Made by a program: the position numbers and the translations under genes. Of a stretch of 64,000 nucleotides of DNA, positions 10,387 to 32,662 are shown piece after piece. This DNA comes from Elusimicrobiota bacterium (GTDB lineage Bacteria; Elusimicrobiota; Elusimicrobia; UBA1565; UBA9628). Under the pieces are notes generated by a model. That model was not told the DNA's origin and did not search any database. It worked only from the letters and a program-made list of their open reading frames with translations. Every line of letters begins with the position of its first letter. The first letter of the stretch is position 1. The DNA lies in contig DAIDHI010000105.1 in assembly GCA_027452025.1 (NCBI GenBank), positions 1 through 64,000 on the forward strand, given 5' to 3'.

Positions 10387-12195
10387 TACTCCGTGCCTCC
10401 CAGGACCTCGCGCACCGACGTCAGGCCCATCTTCACCTTCTCCAGCCCGTCTTGCACGATCAGGCGCAGGCCCTCCTTCTGCGCCTCGGCGCGCACGGGA
10501 TCGGCGGCCACTTCCTTGAGGGCGAAGGCGCGCAGGTGATCGCTCATGACGAGCAGCTCGTGCAGGCCGACGCGGCCCTTGTAGCCCAGGTTCTTGCAAT
10601 TCTCGCACGTAACGTCCTTGGGCGGCGGGCCGAAGATCTTGGCGCCGGCGGGAAGATCGACGTTGTTCTCCTTGAAGATCTGGATCTCCTCCGGCGTCGG
10701 GTCGTGCGGGACTTTGCATTTCTCGCACAAGCGCCGCGAGAGGCGCTGGGCCATGATCGCCTTCATGGTCGTGGCCACCATGAAGGCCGGCAGGCCCATG
10801 TCGGTCAGGCGCGAGATCGCCGAGCTGGCGTCATTGGTGTGGATCGTGGAAAAAACCAGATGTCCCGTCATGGCGGCTTCCATGGCGATGTGGGCCGTCT
10901 CCTCATCGCGGATCTCGCCGACCATGATCACGTCGGGATCCAGGCGCAGGAAGGAGCGCAGCGCTGTGGCGAAGTCGAATTTCTTGCCCTCGCCGAGCTT
11001 GAGGTCGGGGTTGACGGGCACCTGCACGATGCCGTCGAGATTGTATTCGACAGGGTTTTCGGCGGTGAGAATCTTTATATCGGGCCGGTTGACGTGGTTG
11101 AGCGCGGCGTAGAGCGTGGTGGATTTGCCGGAGCCCGTGGGGCCGCAGACGAGGATGAGGCCGAAGTTCTTCTTGCCGCCGATGCCCTTGAGCAGCCCCA
11201 AGAATCTGTCGAGGGTATCCTTCAAGAAGCCCATCTTCATGATGTCGACCTGCACCGACTTGCGGTCGAGGATGCGCATGACGCAGGACTCGCCGTAGAC
11301 CGTGGGCACCATTTCGACGCGAAATTCGATCGGATTGCCCTGGGCCAGGATCTGGATGCGGCCCGACTGCGGGATGCGCCGCTCCGTGATGTTCATCGAG
11401 TTCGTCATGATCTTGATCTTGGCCGCCACGGCGCTGCGAAAGCCCCAGGGGATCGTGAAGGGCCCGGGCAAGAGCTGCCCGTCCACGCGGTAGCGCAGCA
11501 GTATCTTCGAATTCTTGCCCGTGGCGTCCTCGAAGGGCTCGATGTGGATGTCCGAGGCCTTGATCGAGAGGGCGCCCAGGATCACGGCGTTGACGAGCTT
11601 TTCGACCTCGGGGGCCGAAGCGTCCACCTCCGTGATCTCGGTCTTCTGATCCTCCCTCTGGACCTCGATGCTGCCCTCGCCGCCCGCGGAGACCTCGGCG
11701 CCTTCCTTGGTCTTGTCGACCACGTCGGCGATGAGCTTGCTCACCACCATGCCCTCGCCGCGCCCATAGGCGGCGTCGAGGGCCGAGAGGATGTCCTGGG
11801 GCAGGGCGAGGTAGGGCTGGATCTCGAGCCCGGTGCGCAGGGCGAGGTCCTCGGAGACGAAGAAATCGCGCGGGTCGGCCATCGCCACGAAAAGGACGCT
11901 CTCCTCCTTGGCGAACGGGATCGCCAGATGGCGCTTGGCCACGGCCTCGGGGATGATCTTGGCCGTCTCCGCCTCGACGTCCATCTGCGACAAGTCCACG
12001 GCCTTGACCTGCCACTCCTCGGAGAGGCACTTGAGCAGCTGCGGCTTGCTCATCAGGCTCGCGTCGAGCACGGCCTGCTGAAGGGGCTTTCCGGCCCTCT
12101 GCGCGGCGTCCTCGACCTGCTTGAGCTGCTCGACCGAGAGCAGCTTGCGCTCGGTCAGGATCTCCGAGACGGTCTTGCGCCGCTGCAGCCCGCCT

Positions 12196-12206
<11 letters not shown>
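10386..12206 (-). CDS. Type IV pilus / type II secretion assembly ATPase (PilB/GspE)
   Basis: Walker A GPTGSGKSTTLYAAL; AENPVEYNLDGIVQVPVN; GEIRDEETAHIAMEAAMTGHLVFSTIHTNDA; CEKC...CENC zinc site. Confidence 0.95.
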
Positions 12207-13775
<1,569 letters not shown>

Positions 13776-13779
<4 letters not shown>

Positions 13780-14126
13780 GCGATCTCCATTTGGTCGCCC
13801 GGGGCGACGGACCCGGCCAGGCTCCCGCCGGCCAGCTCGAGCACGCTGTGGGCGCGCAGGACCCAGGGCGAGACGCGCCACGGCTTGAGGTCCTCGATGA
13901 CGCGGACCACCTTGAGCTTCTTGTCGAGAAAAAGCACGTCGATCGAAAATTTCATGAAAAAGGTGTGGATCATCGGGCAGGGAATGATCCAGAGGCCCTC
14001 GCCGAGCTCGAGCGCGGCTTTCCCCAATAAACCACGGCTGCGGGACTGGTACGTCTCGGCCTTGCCGACCTTCGTCGCGACGGGCCGTCCGTGGGTTCGG
14101 TTGAAGGCGACCATGGCCGCCGCCAT
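13776..14126 (-). CDS. DUF192 family protein
   Basis: SRGLLGK...GLWIIPCPMIHTFFMKFSIDVLFLDKKLKVVRVIEDLKPWRV; start may be the ATG at 14114. Confidence 0.88.
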
Positions 14127-14145
14127 TTTAACAAACTAATGCGAA

Positions 14146-14207
14146 GGGTGTCAGACGTTGACTTGTTGACTTGTCTAGACAAGTCAACAAGTCAACGTCT
14201 GACACCC
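14146..14207. repeat. 62-bp perfect inverted repeat (family copy 1)
   Basis: GGGTGTCAGACGTTGACTTGTTGACTTGTCT|AGACAAGTCAACAAGTCAACGTCTGACACCC; every base of the 31-nt half is mirrored. Confidence 0.98.
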
Positions 14208-14214
14208 TGGTGAT

Positions 14215-16293
14215 TCAGTCGCTGAGAGGAAGGGGCTGCATGAAGCGCCGGTTGAGCTCGGCGTAGCGCCGCAACTCGGGCTTCTGGAACACGGCGGCGT
14301 TGAGGAGGTAGCGGCGAGCCACGGACGCCGCCCCTTTGCCGGAACCGTTGATCGTGGAGAGAAAGTCGGCCGCGACGGAGGTCGGGTCCACCAGGCTCAA
14401 GATCAGCTTCATCGCGTCGTCGTAGCTCAGGCGGCTGCTGGCCTGTCCCGAGATTAGGCGCACGAGGGCCGAGGTCCGCGCCTGGGCCGTCGCCGCCTCC
14501 TTGATCTTCTCGAAATCGCGCACCACGGCCTCGGCGCGAGCCTCCAGGAACTGGGCGGCGGAGACGTCGGAGGGATTAGACACCGTCTGCCCGGAGATGA
14601 CCTCTTGCATGAGCTCCCGGCTGTGACCGGCCAGGGACTGCGCGAAAGCCTCGAGGATTCGGGCCGGAGACGCCGCGACCAGCTCCTCGATCGCCTTCTT
14701 TCCGAGCACGACCGTCAGCGTGGCCTCCCCGGTGAAGCCCTTTTTCTCGGTCCCGGCGGGAAGCTCCACGGGAGGCGGAACGACGACGGGCCGCATCACA
14801 TCGGCCGTTTCCCGGGTCATCTTTAGGGCCTTGCGGCGGCTGGCGCGGAGATAGCCCTCCTGCCGGACATAGACGACCATCGGTTCTCCGTCGGCGCCGC
14901 CCGCCTTCACGACCGAGACCCCCGTGACGCTGCGCTGCACCTGCACGCGCTTCAGGTTGCCGTCCATGCCAGGAAAGTCGATCATCCCGCGCGAGTAGCC
15001 GACCGAGGCCGAGCGCAGGTCCAGCTCGCCCTGCGCCGGGTCGCGCGTGACGAAGCGGTCCTCGGAGCGCGATTTCGTGTGGTCGTAGTTGAGGAACATG
15101 GGCAGGCGGATATGCACGTAGCGCAACGTGCTTTTCTGGCGGTCGGCGCCGGCGAAGCTCGCGGAGGCTCCCATGGCGGCGCCGTTGGCGTCGGAAAGGC
15201 CGTCCAAGAAAGCGCGGATGCCGGCGTCGCGTCCGCCCAGCGGCAGGTCCTTGCGCAGCGCCGCCGGAGAAATCGCCGCGAGGTCTCCGTGCAGCGCGCG
15301 CTGCAGGCCCTCCATTTGGGCCTGATCGTTGGGATTGAGCAGATATTCCAAAACAACCTGGTCGGAGGTCGAGTCGGCGCTCGACGCCTCGAAGACGGCG
15401 GAAAGATACGTGTTGAGCGCGTCGGCCGCCGCCACCACGCCGACGTCGGCCACGGGCTTGCTCAGGGCGCGGGCCATGGCCTTTTCCACGTCCGGCTTGC
15501 CGGCGTTGATCGCCGGCAGGGGCGAGCCGATGATCTGCCCGTCCAAGGTCCGCGCCTGGATGCGGTCGATGCGCACCCGGAAGCGCAGGACGTCGGGGCT
15601 CATGCGATAGAGGGTGGCCATGCCGCCGCGCTGCTTGGAATATGTCAGCGACAGGATGAAGGCGCCGCTCAGAGCCGGCGAGCTGGGATAAAAGCCGGCC
15701 TGGGGTCCGATGCCGATCTGAAAGGACGCCGGGATCTTCCAAAGCTCGCCCACCTCCATCTTGGAGATGCGCTTGGCGCTCAGCGGAAAGGCGGTCTTGA
15801 AGCTGGTGACCTTGACGAGCTTGCCGAGTTGCTGGCAGGAATTGTCGTTTTGCAGCGGGCGAATGACGAGCGACTGGCCCTGGAACTCGCTGCTGAAGAA
15901 CATGGTCAGAGGCGCCGGGCCGGTCGTGTGCAAGAGCTTGCGCGAGTAGCCCATCGACAGGTCGATGTTGAGGCTGTCGATGAGGGCCAGCTGGCCGGAA
16001 GGATAACGGTAAAATTGGCGGCTGGCGCTGTTGGTGCCTCCGACGAGGAAGCCGTTTTCCCCCTGCTGCCGGCTCTGGCCCAAGCCGTTGTTGTCGCGGT
16101 AGCCGGCCTCGAAGGGGATCTTGTCGCAGATCTGGTGGAAGCCGCGGTTTTGCAGCTGGTCGTTGAAGCCGAGGACGGCGACGGCTTCCGGGCTGTCGTC
16201 GGCGAAGGCTCCCGAGGGATCGGCCGGCGTCCACGGCGTCTGAGTCGCCGCGGCGGCCAAAGACGCTATAAGGGGAAGCGCCGTCAAGATCAT
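14215..16293 (-). CDS. Large secreted protein of unknown function
   Basis: Signal-peptide-like N-terminus MILTALPLIASLAAAATQT; no family recognised. Confidence 0.75.
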   Translation of the reverse strand: MILTALPLIASLAAAATQTPWTPADPSGAFADDSPEAVAVLGFNDQLQNRGFHQICDKIPFEAGYRDNNGLGQSRQQGENGFLVGGTNSASRQFYRYPSGQLALIDSLNIDLSMGYSRKLLHTTGPAPLTMFFSSEFQGQSLVIRPLQNDNSCQQLGKLVKVTSFKTAFPLSAKRISKMEVGELWKIPASFQIGIGPQAGFYPSSPALSGAFILSLTYSKQRGGMATLYRMSPDVLRFRVRIDRIQARTLDGQIIGSPLPAINAGKPDVEKAMARALSKPVADVGVVAAADALNTYLSAVFEASSADSTSDQVVLEYLLNPNDQAQMEGLQRALHGDLAAISPAALRKDLPLGGRDAGIRAFLDGLSDANGAAMGASASFAGADRQKSTLRYVHIRLPMFLNYDHTKSRSEDRFVTRDPAQGELDLRSASVGYSRGMIDFPGMDGNLKRVQVQRSVTGVSVVKAGGADGEPMVVYVRQEGYLRASRRKALKMTRETADVMRPVVVPPPVELPAGTEKKGFTGEATLTVVLGKKAIEELVAASPARILEAFAQSLAGHSRELMQEVISGQTVSNPSDVSAAQFLEARAEAVVRDFEKIKEAATAQARTSALVRLISGQASSRLSYDDAMKLILSLVDPTSVAADFLSTINGSGKGAASVARRYLLNAAVFQKPELRRYAELNRRFMQPLPLSD

Positions 16294-21713: not shown

Positions 21714-22883
21714 ATGAGGCCGGAAAGCCGCTGCTCGCTGCTCATCGTCGAGGACGATCCGGAGTTCCAACGGATGGCTCAGTCGGCGCTCGCCTCGGCG
21801 GGCTACGCCGCGGCCTTTTCGGCGACGGCGGCCCAGGCGCAGGCGGAGCTCTCCGGCCGCCGCTTTCCGCTCGTGCTCGCCGGCCTGCGCCTGCCAGACG
21901 GCGACGGCCTCGAAGTCCTCGCTCAGTGCCGCAAGGCCGATCCTCTGGCGGTGGGCGTGGTGATCACCGGGCCGGCGGCGGCGCATCGCGCGCTGGAGGC
22001 GCTGCGCGGCGGCGCCTACGACTATCTGATGAAGCCCTGCGGAGCGGACTCGCTGTTGTCCTGCGTGCGCCGGGGCCTGGAGCATCACCGCCTGCGCGGC
22101 GCGCTCGTGCAGAAGGCGGCCCAGGTCGAAACCCTCGAAAAACAGCTGGCGATGAAAACCAGCTTCATCCAGAACGTCACCCACGAGCTCAAGAATCCCC
22201 TCTCCGTCATCTACGGCTATTCCGCCTTTCTTCTCAAGCAGCGCCACGAGTGCAAGCCCGAGGACCTGGACCGCAGCCTGCGCGCCCTGCACAATAACGC
22301 CGAACGTCTCAGCCATCTGCTCGAGGAGATGCTGGAGTCCTCGCGGCTTTCCAGCCAAAAGCTGGAGCTTTCGCGCCAGCCCGTGCCCGCCGCGCAGCTG
22401 GCCTTCGAGGCCGTCGAGGGCTTCAAGATCGTGGCCCAGAAGAAGGAGATCGTCCTGCGCTTAGGCCCCGTGCCCCAGGACCCGGTCCACGTCGACGCCA
22501 AGCGCGTCCACCAGATCTTCGCCAACCTCCTCTCCAATGCCCTCAAATTCACGCCCAAAGGCGGCTTTGTCGTGGTCGCCGGGCGCAAGGAGGACGGCTT
22601 CGTGCGCTTCTGGGTGCAGGACACCGGCTGCGGCGTCGCCGCGCAGGACCTGCCCCGCCTCTTCGAGCGCTTCTACCAAGTCTCGGCCACGAAAGCCCAT
22701 CACGCGGGCCTGGGCCTGGGCCTGGACATCTCCAAGGGGCTCGTCGAGCTGCACGGCGGGCGCATTTGGGCCGAGAGCGTCCCCGGCGAGGGCTCGACGT
22801 TCTTCTTCACGCTTCCCCTCGATCTGCACGCGCGCCGCGAGCGCGCCCCCGAAGCTCCCCGCCGCGCCGTCTCTCCCGACTGA
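21714..22883 (+). CDS. Response regulator receiver-histidine kinase hybrid
   Basis: LLIVEDDPEFQRMAQ...; NVTHELKNPLSVIYGY; FANLLSNALKFTPKGG; GLGLGLDISKGLVELHGG. Confidence 0.92.
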   Translation: MRPESRCSLLIVEDDPEFQRMAQSALASAGYAAAFSATAAQAQAELSGRRFPLVLAGLRLPDGDGLEVLAQCRKADPLAVGVVITGPAAAHRALEALRGGAYDYLMKPCGADSLLSCVRRGLEHHRLRGALVQKAAQVETLEKQLAMKTSFIQNVTHELKNPLSVIYGYSAFLLKQRHECKPEDLDRSLRALHNNAERLSHLLEEMLESSRLSSQKLELSRQPVPAAQLAFEAVEGFKIVAQKKEIVLRLGPVPQDPVHVDAKRVHQIFANLLSNALKFTPKGGFVVVAGRKEDGFVRFWVQDTGCGVAAQDLPRLFERFYQVSATKAHHAGLGLGLDISKGLVELHGGRIWAESVPGEGSTFFFTLPLDLHARRERAPEAPRRAVSPD

Positions 22884-22909: not shown

Positions 22910-22986
22910 ACGGTGCCTGGCTTTGACTTATTTAACTTTTGGGCCTGAATGGCCCAAAAGTTAAATAAGTCAAAGCCAGGCACCGT
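22910..22986. repeat. 77-bp inverted repeat, 36-bp perfect arms, 5-nt loop (family copy 3, diverged)
   Basis: ACGGTGCCTGGCTTTGACTTATTTAACTTTTGGGCC-TGAAT-GGCCCAAAAGTTAAATAAGTCAAAGCCAGGCACCGT. Confidence 0.98.
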
Positions 22987-22992
22987 TAGTTG

Positions 22993-22998
22993 TAGAAT
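22993..22998 (+). promoter_or_regulatory. -10 TAGAAT, 7 nt before ATG 23006, adjacent to repeat copy 3
   Basis: Read directly; no SD. Confidence 0.55.
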
Positions 22999-23005
22999 GG
23001 GCGCC

Positions 23006-24889
23006 ATGCCGAGCGCACCGGCGGCGCCTTCCGGCGAGCGCCATCTCAAGCTCATCGCACGGGCCAGCGCGTCCGCGACGGCCGCGCTGTCGGCGGCCTC
23101 CATCGCGGGCTGGGCCATCCATTCCCCGGGCCTGGAAGCGCTTTTCCTCGGGTCCAATCCGGTCAGCTTGCCGCCGGCCTGCGCGCTGCTGCTTTGCGGC
23201 TTCTCGCTATTTTTCGCCTCCCGCGAGCCCGCGCCGCGGCCCACGCGCGCGGCCGGCTTGGCCGCGTTGGCCGCCGCCGTCTACAGCCTCGTCGCCGACG
23301 ACAGGAGACGCGCGGCCGCTCTAGGGCACATGACCTTCTTGAGCGCCCTGGTCCTCGCGCTCGTCGCCCTGGCGCTATGCCTCTCCGACCTCGTGGTGGC
23401 GGACTGGAGGCCGTCAAACGTCCTGGCCGCCGCGGCGTGGGCCTTCTCCCTCCTGGCCCTGGTCAGCCACCTCTATGGCGCCCGGCTTTTGCGAGGCGGC
23501 TTCGACATGGCCCTGCCCGCGGCGCTGATCTTTTTGATCCTCTGCTCCGGGCTGCTGACCGGGCGCCGGGGCCTCATTGCCGGACTGCTCGTGGAGCCGG
23601 GCCCCGGCGGCGTCGTCCTGCGGCGCTTCTTTCCCGCCGCGATCCTCGTGCCGGTCTTTCTCGGCTGGCTGCGCGTGCTGTTTAGCGACCTCTTTCTTCA
23701 GGCCGGAACCGGAGCGGCGGCGCTCTCGGTGACGATCGCCGCCGTCTTCGGCCTGCTGGTCATCCAGCTGGCCCTGAGAATCGATCGGGAAGCCGCGGTC
23801 TCGGAGCGCCGGCGGGCGTACTTCGACACCGCCGTCAACTCCGTCAAGGACTACGCGATCTTCCTGCTCGACGCCGAGGGCCGCATCCAGACGTGGAACG
23901 ATGGCGCGCGGATCATCAACGACTGGACGGCGGAGGAGATCGTCGGGCGTCCCCTCTCGATGCTTTATCCCCCGGAGGACGCCGAGCGAAGGGTCCGGCT
24001 CGAGCTGGAGGCTGCGGCGCGCGAAGGCCGCTATGAAGACGAGGGCTGGCGGGCGCGCAAGGACGGCAGCCTCTACTGGGCCGGCATCGTCTTGACGGCC
24101 CTGCGCGACGAACGCGGCCGCGTAACGGGGTTCCTGAAGGTCGCCCGGGACATGACGGAGCGGCGCCGGCAGGAGGCGCAGCTCAAAGAGACGCTGGAGA
24201 AGCTGCAGCGCTCCAACCAAGAGCTCGAGCAGTTCGCTTACGTGGCCTCCCACGACCTCCAAGAGCCCCTGCGCAAGGTCACGAGCTTCACGCAGCTCTT
24301 CGCCAAGCGCTACGCGAGCAAGGTGGACGCCACCGCCGCCGGCTACATCGGCTACATCGTCGACGGCGCCCAGCGCATGCAGAACCTCATCACCGACTTG
24401 CTGGCCTTCTCGCGTCTCGGCAGCCAGCCGCGCCTCGTGGAGACCGACCTCGGCGAGATCGCCCGGCAGGCCGTGACGGAGTTCGAGCTGGCCATCAAGG
24501 ACAGCGGCGCGAAGGTCGAGATCGAGGCCCTGCCCCGCGTCTCCTGCGACCCCGGGCGCATGCTACAATTATTCGAGAACCTCCTCGGCAATGCCCTGAA
24601 GTTCCGGGGCGCGGAGCGGTCCATCGTGCGCATCTTCGCGCAAAGAGGGGACGGCGGCTGGACGGTCTCGGTGGCCGACAACGGCATCGGCATCGAGCCC
24701 CAATATCACGATCAGATCTTCGCGATGTTCCGCCGGCTGCATTCTCGCTCGGAATACCCGGGGACGGGGATCGGCCTGGCGATCTGCAAAAGGGTCGTCG
24801 AGCAATTGGGCGGCCGCATTTGGGTCGAGTCGCGGCCCGCGAAGGGCTCGACGTTCCGCTTCACCATACCGGAGGCGCGAAAAGCATGA
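23006..24889 (+). CDS. Membrane PAS sensor histidine kinase (phytochrome-type HisKA)
   Basis: N-terminal TM segments; PAS FLLDAEGRIQTWNDGARIINDWTAEEIVGR; YVASHDLQEPLRKVTSFTQLF; GIGLAICKRVVEQLGG. ORF extends upstream into the repeat, but the ATG at 23006 is preferred. Confidence 0.92.
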   Translation: MPSAPAAPSGERHLKLIARASASATAALSAASIAGWAIHSPGLEALFLGSNPVSLPPACALLLCGFSLFFASREPAPRPTRAAGLAALAAAVYSLVADDRRRAAALGHMTFLSALVLALVALALCLSDLVVADWRPSNVLAAAAWAFSLLALVSHLYGARLLRGGFDMALPAALIFLILCSGLLTGRRGLIAGLLVEPGPGGVVLRRFFPAAILVPVFLGWLRVLFSDLFLQAGTGAAALSVTIAAVFGLLVIQLALRIDREAAVSERRRAYFDTAVNSVKDYAIFLLDAEGRIQTWNDGARIINDWTAEEIVGRPLSMLYPPEDAERRVRLELEAAAREGRYEDEGWRARKDGSLYWAGIVLTALRDERGRVTGFLKVARDMTERRRQEAQLKETLEKLQRSNQELEQFAYVASHDLQEPLRKVTSFTQLFAKRYASKVDATAAGYIGYIVDGAQRMQNLITDLLAFSRLGSQPRLVETDLGEIARQAVTEFELAIKDSGAKVEIEALPRVSCDPGRMLQLFENLLGNALKFRGAERSIVRIFAQRGDGGWTVSVADNGIGIEPQYHDQIFAMFRRLHSRSEYPGTGIGLAICKRVVEQLGGRIWVESRPAKGSTFRFTIPEARKA

Positions 24890-32603: not shown

Positions 32604-32662
32604 GGTGTCAGACGTTGACTTGTTGACTTGTCGAGCAAGTCAACAAGTCAACGTCTGACACC
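32604..32662. repeat. 59-bp inverted repeat, 27-bp perfect arms, 5-nt loop (family copy 2)
   Basis: GGTGTCAGACGTTGACTTGTTGACTTG-TCGAG-CAAGTCAACAAGTCAACGTCTGACACC; arms identical to copy 1. Confidence 0.98.

Follow-up and report, generated by a model that had tools for sequence, protein, structure and literature searches.

A palindrome between two sensor-kinase genes of an Elusimicrobiota bacterium belongs to one of four hairpin families, whose arms correspond one-to-one to the ends of four Y1 tyrosine transposase elements

What is the palindrome at positions 22910–22986 of this 64 000 nt stretch of DNA (hereafter the window), and how is it related to two smaller hairpins in the same window? 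Its two arms (22910–22945 and 22951–22986) are each 36 nt long and 100 % complementary around a 5 nt loop, TGAAT, as the original prediction of a 77 bp hairpin with perfect arms had it, and they form the longest perfect inverted repeat of the window. Folded as single-stranded DNA this segment has a calculated energy of −46.2 kcal mol−1 (z = −16.9 relative to shuffled sequences). Judged by homology with the other copies, the element itself is the 73 nt GGTG...CACC segment at 22912–22984 (arms GGTGCCTGGCTTTGACTTATTTAACTTTTGGGCC, no strand assigned), and the outer AC/GT pair is a chance extension. The hairpin, here called copy 3, is intergenic, its two neighbours being sensor-kinase genes of the same orientation: a gene for a response-regulator and histidine-kinase protein (21714–22883, + strand), whose stop codon is 28 nt before the hairpin, and one for a PAS/HisKA/HATPase sensor kinase (22997–24889, + strand), whose start is 12–21 nt beyond it. 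An intrinsic terminator was considered and rejected, since a scan of 22910–22986 gave no terminator-like site, there being neither a stem with a T run in this interval nor a T-tract near copy 3. An Rfam scan of the window matched no family other than a single tRNA gene, at 600–683 on the − strand. No empty site was found for copy 3, as a DNA search with this region returned only kinase paralogues.

The other two hairpins, also without an assigned strand, each sit between converging ORFs. Copy 1 (14147–14206, apex GTCTAGAC) separates ORFs 12121–14139 (+) and 14215–16293 (−), and copy 2 (32604–32662, apex GTCGAGC) lies 10 nt past the stop codon of a mutY-like gene (+) and is followed by a gcvT-like gene (−). 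All three window copies carry TTGACTT at arm positions 12–18, as had been noticed, and from this a superfamily of palindromes had been proposed in which both an end (GGTGYCWGRC) and a TTGACTT core are constrained. A scan of the source genome (3.25 Mb in 105 contigs) with this end-plus-core profile at up to two mismatches gave 57 forward and 60 reverse matches, 117 altogether, and none for the reversed control; a pattern of paired ends found 39 strict hairpins with 0 in the controls, and about 49 hairpins when one mismatch per end is permitted. The constrained end is thus upheld, both here and in the bacterial family to which this genome belongs, 20 of whose 44 genomes have strict GGTG hairpins while the control gives 0 throughout.

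The hairpins fall into four families: A (24 hairpins, arms GGTGTCAGACGTTGACTTGTTGACTT, including copies 1 and 2), B (eight, arms GGTGTCAGACTTTCACTTTTCACTT), C (eight, arms GGTGTCAGGCYTTGAATT...) and D (nine, mostly GGTGCCTGGCTTTRACYT..., including copy 3). The constrained core did not survive this comparison. TTGACTT is missing from families B (TTTCACTT) and C (TTGAATT) and from most of family D, where seven of nine copies carry TTTAACTT, TTTAACCT or a similar sequence, and so is not a general core; in relatives the TTGACTT core position varies freely. Most hairpins are intergenic, no more than some 30 nt away from a stop codon or start. Flanking direct repeats do not exceed 3 nt in the 49 copies, and this length is reached in only two of them. 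Three contigs (C27, C40 and C80; the end of L066 and the starts of L068 and L073) terminate inside hairpins, so the assembly breaks at palindromes and copies may have been missed.

Searching with PF01797 identifies exactly four Y1_Tnp genes in this genome (E-values 2×10−8 to 4×10−13), and each lies between the inverted ends of one hairpin family. The four elements so defined, of 907, 887, 935 and 921 bp, each carry one Y1 (RAYT-type) tyrosine transposase, with no second ORF seen in these 0.9 kb units, and are bounded by terminal inverted repeats (TIRs) of about 27 nt whose left and right ends differ at 0–2 of 27 positions. The hairpin families match these TIRs over about 24–27 nt, and for 49 of 49 hairpins the TIR of the same family is the best match, with a mean identity of 0.96–1.00 over 24 nt versus 0.62–0.79 for the other TIRs; the TIR that copy 3 itself matches best belongs to the RAYT element of contig C60, whereas the family A transposase is encoded on C44. 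A 94 nt family D copy (C67:26533) retains the TAACTAA/TAACTTA difference by which the left and right ends of the D element are told apart, as a derivative formed by internal deletion should. The HuH motif NHFH and the motif YxxxNP are present in all four transposases, and three of the four have Y[IV]HLNP together with NHFH, motifs of TnpA-Y1 subclass 2.1. HxFQxR is also present in the proteins, as is a C-terminal tail, which in one of them matches HTH_38 weakly. They score 61–77 bits against the NCBIfam model REP_Tyr_transpos, under its cut-off of 80, and their only match of solved structure is E. coli TnpA-REP (4er8), which is weak (E-value 0.0098).

We therefore consider it probable, at roughly 85 %, that copy 3 is a non-autonomous element consisting of two back-to-back TIRs and belonging to family D of four, each family being mobilized in trans by its cognate Y1 tyrosine transposase of the RAYT/TIRYT type. 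At the level of sequence, this reading is supported by the one-to-one match in ends between four elements and four families, by the dispersed and mostly intergenic copies, by empty sites that lack a target duplication, by arms that are nearly invariant with mostly mirrored changes, and by the variable apex. Copy 3 differs from the other two window hairpins as a member of family D, which is tied to a different transposase from that of family A, and not through drift of one palindrome. That the three window hairpins are a single drifted family, in which copy 3 has decayed or diverged from the others, might be supposed from their common ends and from TTGACTT at the same offset, but it is scarcely credible: the family of copy 3 scores 0.96 against the D element but 0.66 against the A element, TTGACTT is absent from other D copies, and the existence of two separate transposase elements, A and D, contradicts it.

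The arms and apices of the hairpins behave very differently. Across the hairpins the apex is 4–9 nt long and different in almost every copy, whereas the arms are nearly invariant; between copies of family A the arms differ at 0.016–0.022 per site and the 7–9 nt apex at 0.41–0.48, and 23 of 24 apices are distinct. Pairing within the family A apices is nevertheless retained, with 48 paired positions versus 37 when the halves are reshuffled between copies (P=0.0008). In the relative G016 nine copies have nine different apices, and their arms are the same apart from two single changes. The original prediction held that every divergence is mirrored in the opposite arm, and this is largely but not wholly so: relative to the family consensus there are 20 mirrored and nine one-sided arm changes in this genome (four degenerate or duplicate copies being excluded), and the nearest pairs among the strict hairpins of relatives have 42 mirrored versus three one-sided. 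These counts are not independent, as changes are common to subfamilies, and a strict search is biased towards ends that are symmetric. The copies look young because their arms are so alike, and an apex changing at an ordinary rate after insertion would not reach such differences in copies of this age. At two homologous loci (on C74 and C80, with 91 % flank identity) the same apex is kept, which weakly suggests that the apex changes on copying and not in place, the pairs being few and a mixture of strains possible. A pair at the enolase site (C40/C105) was dropped as weak for dating apex change, since these contigs may represent two strains. We note that the loci concerned (L056:2423–4075 at the end of C105, and L057 at the end of C40) are homologous enolase/phosphomannomutase-type loci that both carry a family A hairpin; although both are in one assembly, their overall identity is about 75 %, rising to a high level close to the hairpin, and strain mixture, contamination or recombination are candidate readings of this duplication.

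The sites of insertion have features of their own. In this genome the flanks follow a motif, hairpin-NNN-AGGAG (log-likelihood −1898 versus −1958±7.6 in shuffles), in which AGGAG is often the Shine–Dalgarno sequence of the next gene. Within genus g2, eight spacers that align on both flanks contain a hairpin in two species, mostly with arms that differ, whereas random placement would give 0.6–1.6 such shared-spacer pairs for 2500–1000 spacers. At the purA site an intact hairpin is present in six of 15 spacers, each of another family; these include family A in this genome (C43), the GGGG type in G016 and the AGGGTCAG type in G003, and the site is empty in the close relatives G005, G015 and G018, where the junction is clean and target duplication is absent. 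This assembly contains two purA-like genes, L271 (C76) and L275 (C43), with a hairpin at the C43 copy only. A third site has intact hairpins in eight of 16 species, all of different families, the remainder comprising one inside-out palindrome, two remnants and five empty sites; the inside-out palindrome, AAATTAACTTAGGTGCCTGGCACCTAAGTTAATTT in G010 (L309), has the usual outer end at its centre. The purA and third sites were chosen since two or three species shared them, and even when those species are discounted the occupancy is far above the hairpin density of roughly one in 200 spacers. A fourth site (L203) has related hairpins in two species only. Some intergenic addresses are used repeatedly by different families in different species, and target preference, host selection and in-place replacement are candidate causes. 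Such reuse is not general, since none of the relatives with readable sequence has a palindrome of at least 12 bp at the 3′ end of mutY, the location of copy 2. A glmS-like pair (C96/C67) that had seemed to reuse the same edge was rejected, as its hairpins are actually on opposite sides of the gene. We found no report of site reuse in the literature searched, which was that outside subscription journals.

Genes matching PF01797 are present in 32 of the 44 genomes of the family, and these 32 contain 198 hairpins, versus five in the 12 genomes that lack such genes. The numbers of transposases and hairpins are correlated (Spearman 0.59, P=2×10−5; Fisher P=0.039; both without phylogenetic correction), with an association that is not absolute: 14 of the 32 transposase-positive genomes have no strict hairpins, and two genomes have hairpins without a detected transposase gene. 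The identity of TIR and hairpin arm recurs in relatives (L098/G004, L100/G012, L104/G014 and L142/G015), and among Elusimicrobia/Elusimicrobiota records the TIR of L112 is identical to that of L105, and that of L142 to a G015 hairpin. Across the phylum matches were obtained in 33 of 341 genomes, few of them outside the order and these often of another make. Three relatives at the level of class (G218, G192 and G200) have another layout, in which GGTGCCAGGCACC mini-palindromes pair up with inverted copies, possibly another type of element. Of 80 related transposase loci, which represent many phyla, 52 are flanked by TIRs of 13 nt or more, many of which start GGGGTCAG. Hairpins of the GGGG type are found in ten of the 44 family genomes and not in the genome studied here.

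The closest published counterparts would seem to be the terminal repeats of TIRYTs/TIRtrons, in which, according to Di Nocera et al. (2013; PMC3733652), a Y1 tyrosine transposase gene lies between long TIRs that are also dispersed as families, in part as dimers, with a motif GGGGWSAS common to some but not all of the TIRs described there. The likeness extends to the RAYT-type Y1 transposase (PF01797 with NHFH and YxxxNP in all four), to flanking TIRs of about 27 nt that are unrelated to REPs, and to dispersed TIRs, which here are 49 back-to-back pairs. GGGGWSAS fits the TIRs starting GGGGTCAG at related transposase loci as well as those hairpins of relatives that begin GGGGTCAG..., which use the same sites as GGTGTCAG hairpins, but it does not fit the GGTGYCWGRC ends of this genome (GGTGTCAG or GGTGCCTG); and the parts of that work consulted mention neither four transposase–hairpin pairs in a genome, nor long near-perfect hairpins with variable apices, nor site reuse. 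The transposases themselves resemble TnpA-Y1 subclass 2.1 (Quentin et al., 2018; PMC6006769) in their NHFH, Y[IV]HLNP and FQ motifs, their long C-terminal tail of helix–turn–helix character and their low copy number. In that survey genes of this subclass had no REP-like repeats in their vicinity, whereas here dispersed hairpin families match the element ends. With IS200/IS605 they have in common the HuH/Y1 catalytic domain and the lack of target duplication, but YxxxNP replaces YxxxQ, and there is neither a subterminal arm hairpin nor a visible second ORF. A DDE-type MITE was rejected because no target-site duplication was found (direct repeats of 3 nt at most, in two of 49 copies, and a clean empty site).

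Could the hairpins instead be REPINs or BIMEs, that is, doublets of true REP sequences moved by a REP-type RAYT? Bertels & Rainey (2011; PMC3116915) describe non-autonomous inverted doublets that form a hairpin, with every type or repeat family tied to one RAYT and a middle that is less conserved yet still paired through compensatory changes, all of which is found here together with the intergenic location. Our hairpins number tens of copies and not hundreds, however, and the full-length element and the hairpin have the same ends. They may well work like REPINs, but by definition they are not REPINs, because a GTRG tag (GTAG/GTGG) is present at 0 of 49 hairpin ends and there is no hairpin within one arm, single arms folding no better than shuffled sequences. 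Moreover, NHFH and Y[IV]HLNP link all but one of the proteins to subclass 2.1, which has no REP in the published survey (PMC6006769), and we regard this reading as unlikely. A somewhat weaker candidate still, and an improbable one, is that the hairpins are fixed host regulatory structures (terminators, mRNA stabilizers or translation insulators) whose arms are conserved by functional selection. The placement of most hairpins close to stop codons or starts is what such a role would predict, as are the AGGAG flanks that in several cases are the Shine–Dalgarno sequence of the next gene and the occupation of some sites in many species; yet each of the four arm families equals the ends of a transposase element, close relatives have empty sites, and neither a T-tract terminator near copy 3 nor any Rfam family except the tRNA was found. 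The turnover of REP classes described by Nunvar et al. (2013; PMC3686654) likewise places different repeat classes at orthologous positions in related strains, but there the repeats flank the RAYT gene, whereas the sites reported here are ordinary intergenic ones far from a transposase.

If the hairpins are indeed paired TIRs mobilized in trans, the long palindrome would fold when the DNA is single-stranded, the cognate transposase would cut at the GGTG/CACC ends and rejoin them, and the element would move as a single strand, with excision and insertion as in TnpA-REP and IS200/IS605. Two observations speak against this reading: single arms lack the subterminal hairpin that known REP and IS200/IS605 substrates have, and hairpins and transposase genes are incompletely associated across the family. 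The change of apex and the equalizing of the arms could take place around copying, through fold-back copying or repair within the hairpin. We can tentatively imagine a stronger version, rather doubtful as a whole, in which transposition rebuilds each new hairpin from one arm through fold-back copying, giving identical arms and a new apex, and in which there are also standing chromosomal addresses where families insert or replace one another in turn, through a transposase preference for stop-codon/Shine–Dalgarno junctions or a benefit to the host from any hairpin.

The link to transposases, the variable apex and the recurrent sites are additions to what had been predicted for this locus. Subclass 2.1 transposases, which are poorly studied and were reported without associated repeats, are now joined to a large population of palindromic elements, and four enzyme–substrate pairs in one genome provide a natural test set for DNA recognition by Y1 transposases. 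The contrast between invariant arms and a near-unique apex, together with the reuse of sites by different families, bears on how REPIN-like elements copy themselves and on whether bacteria tolerate or use them.
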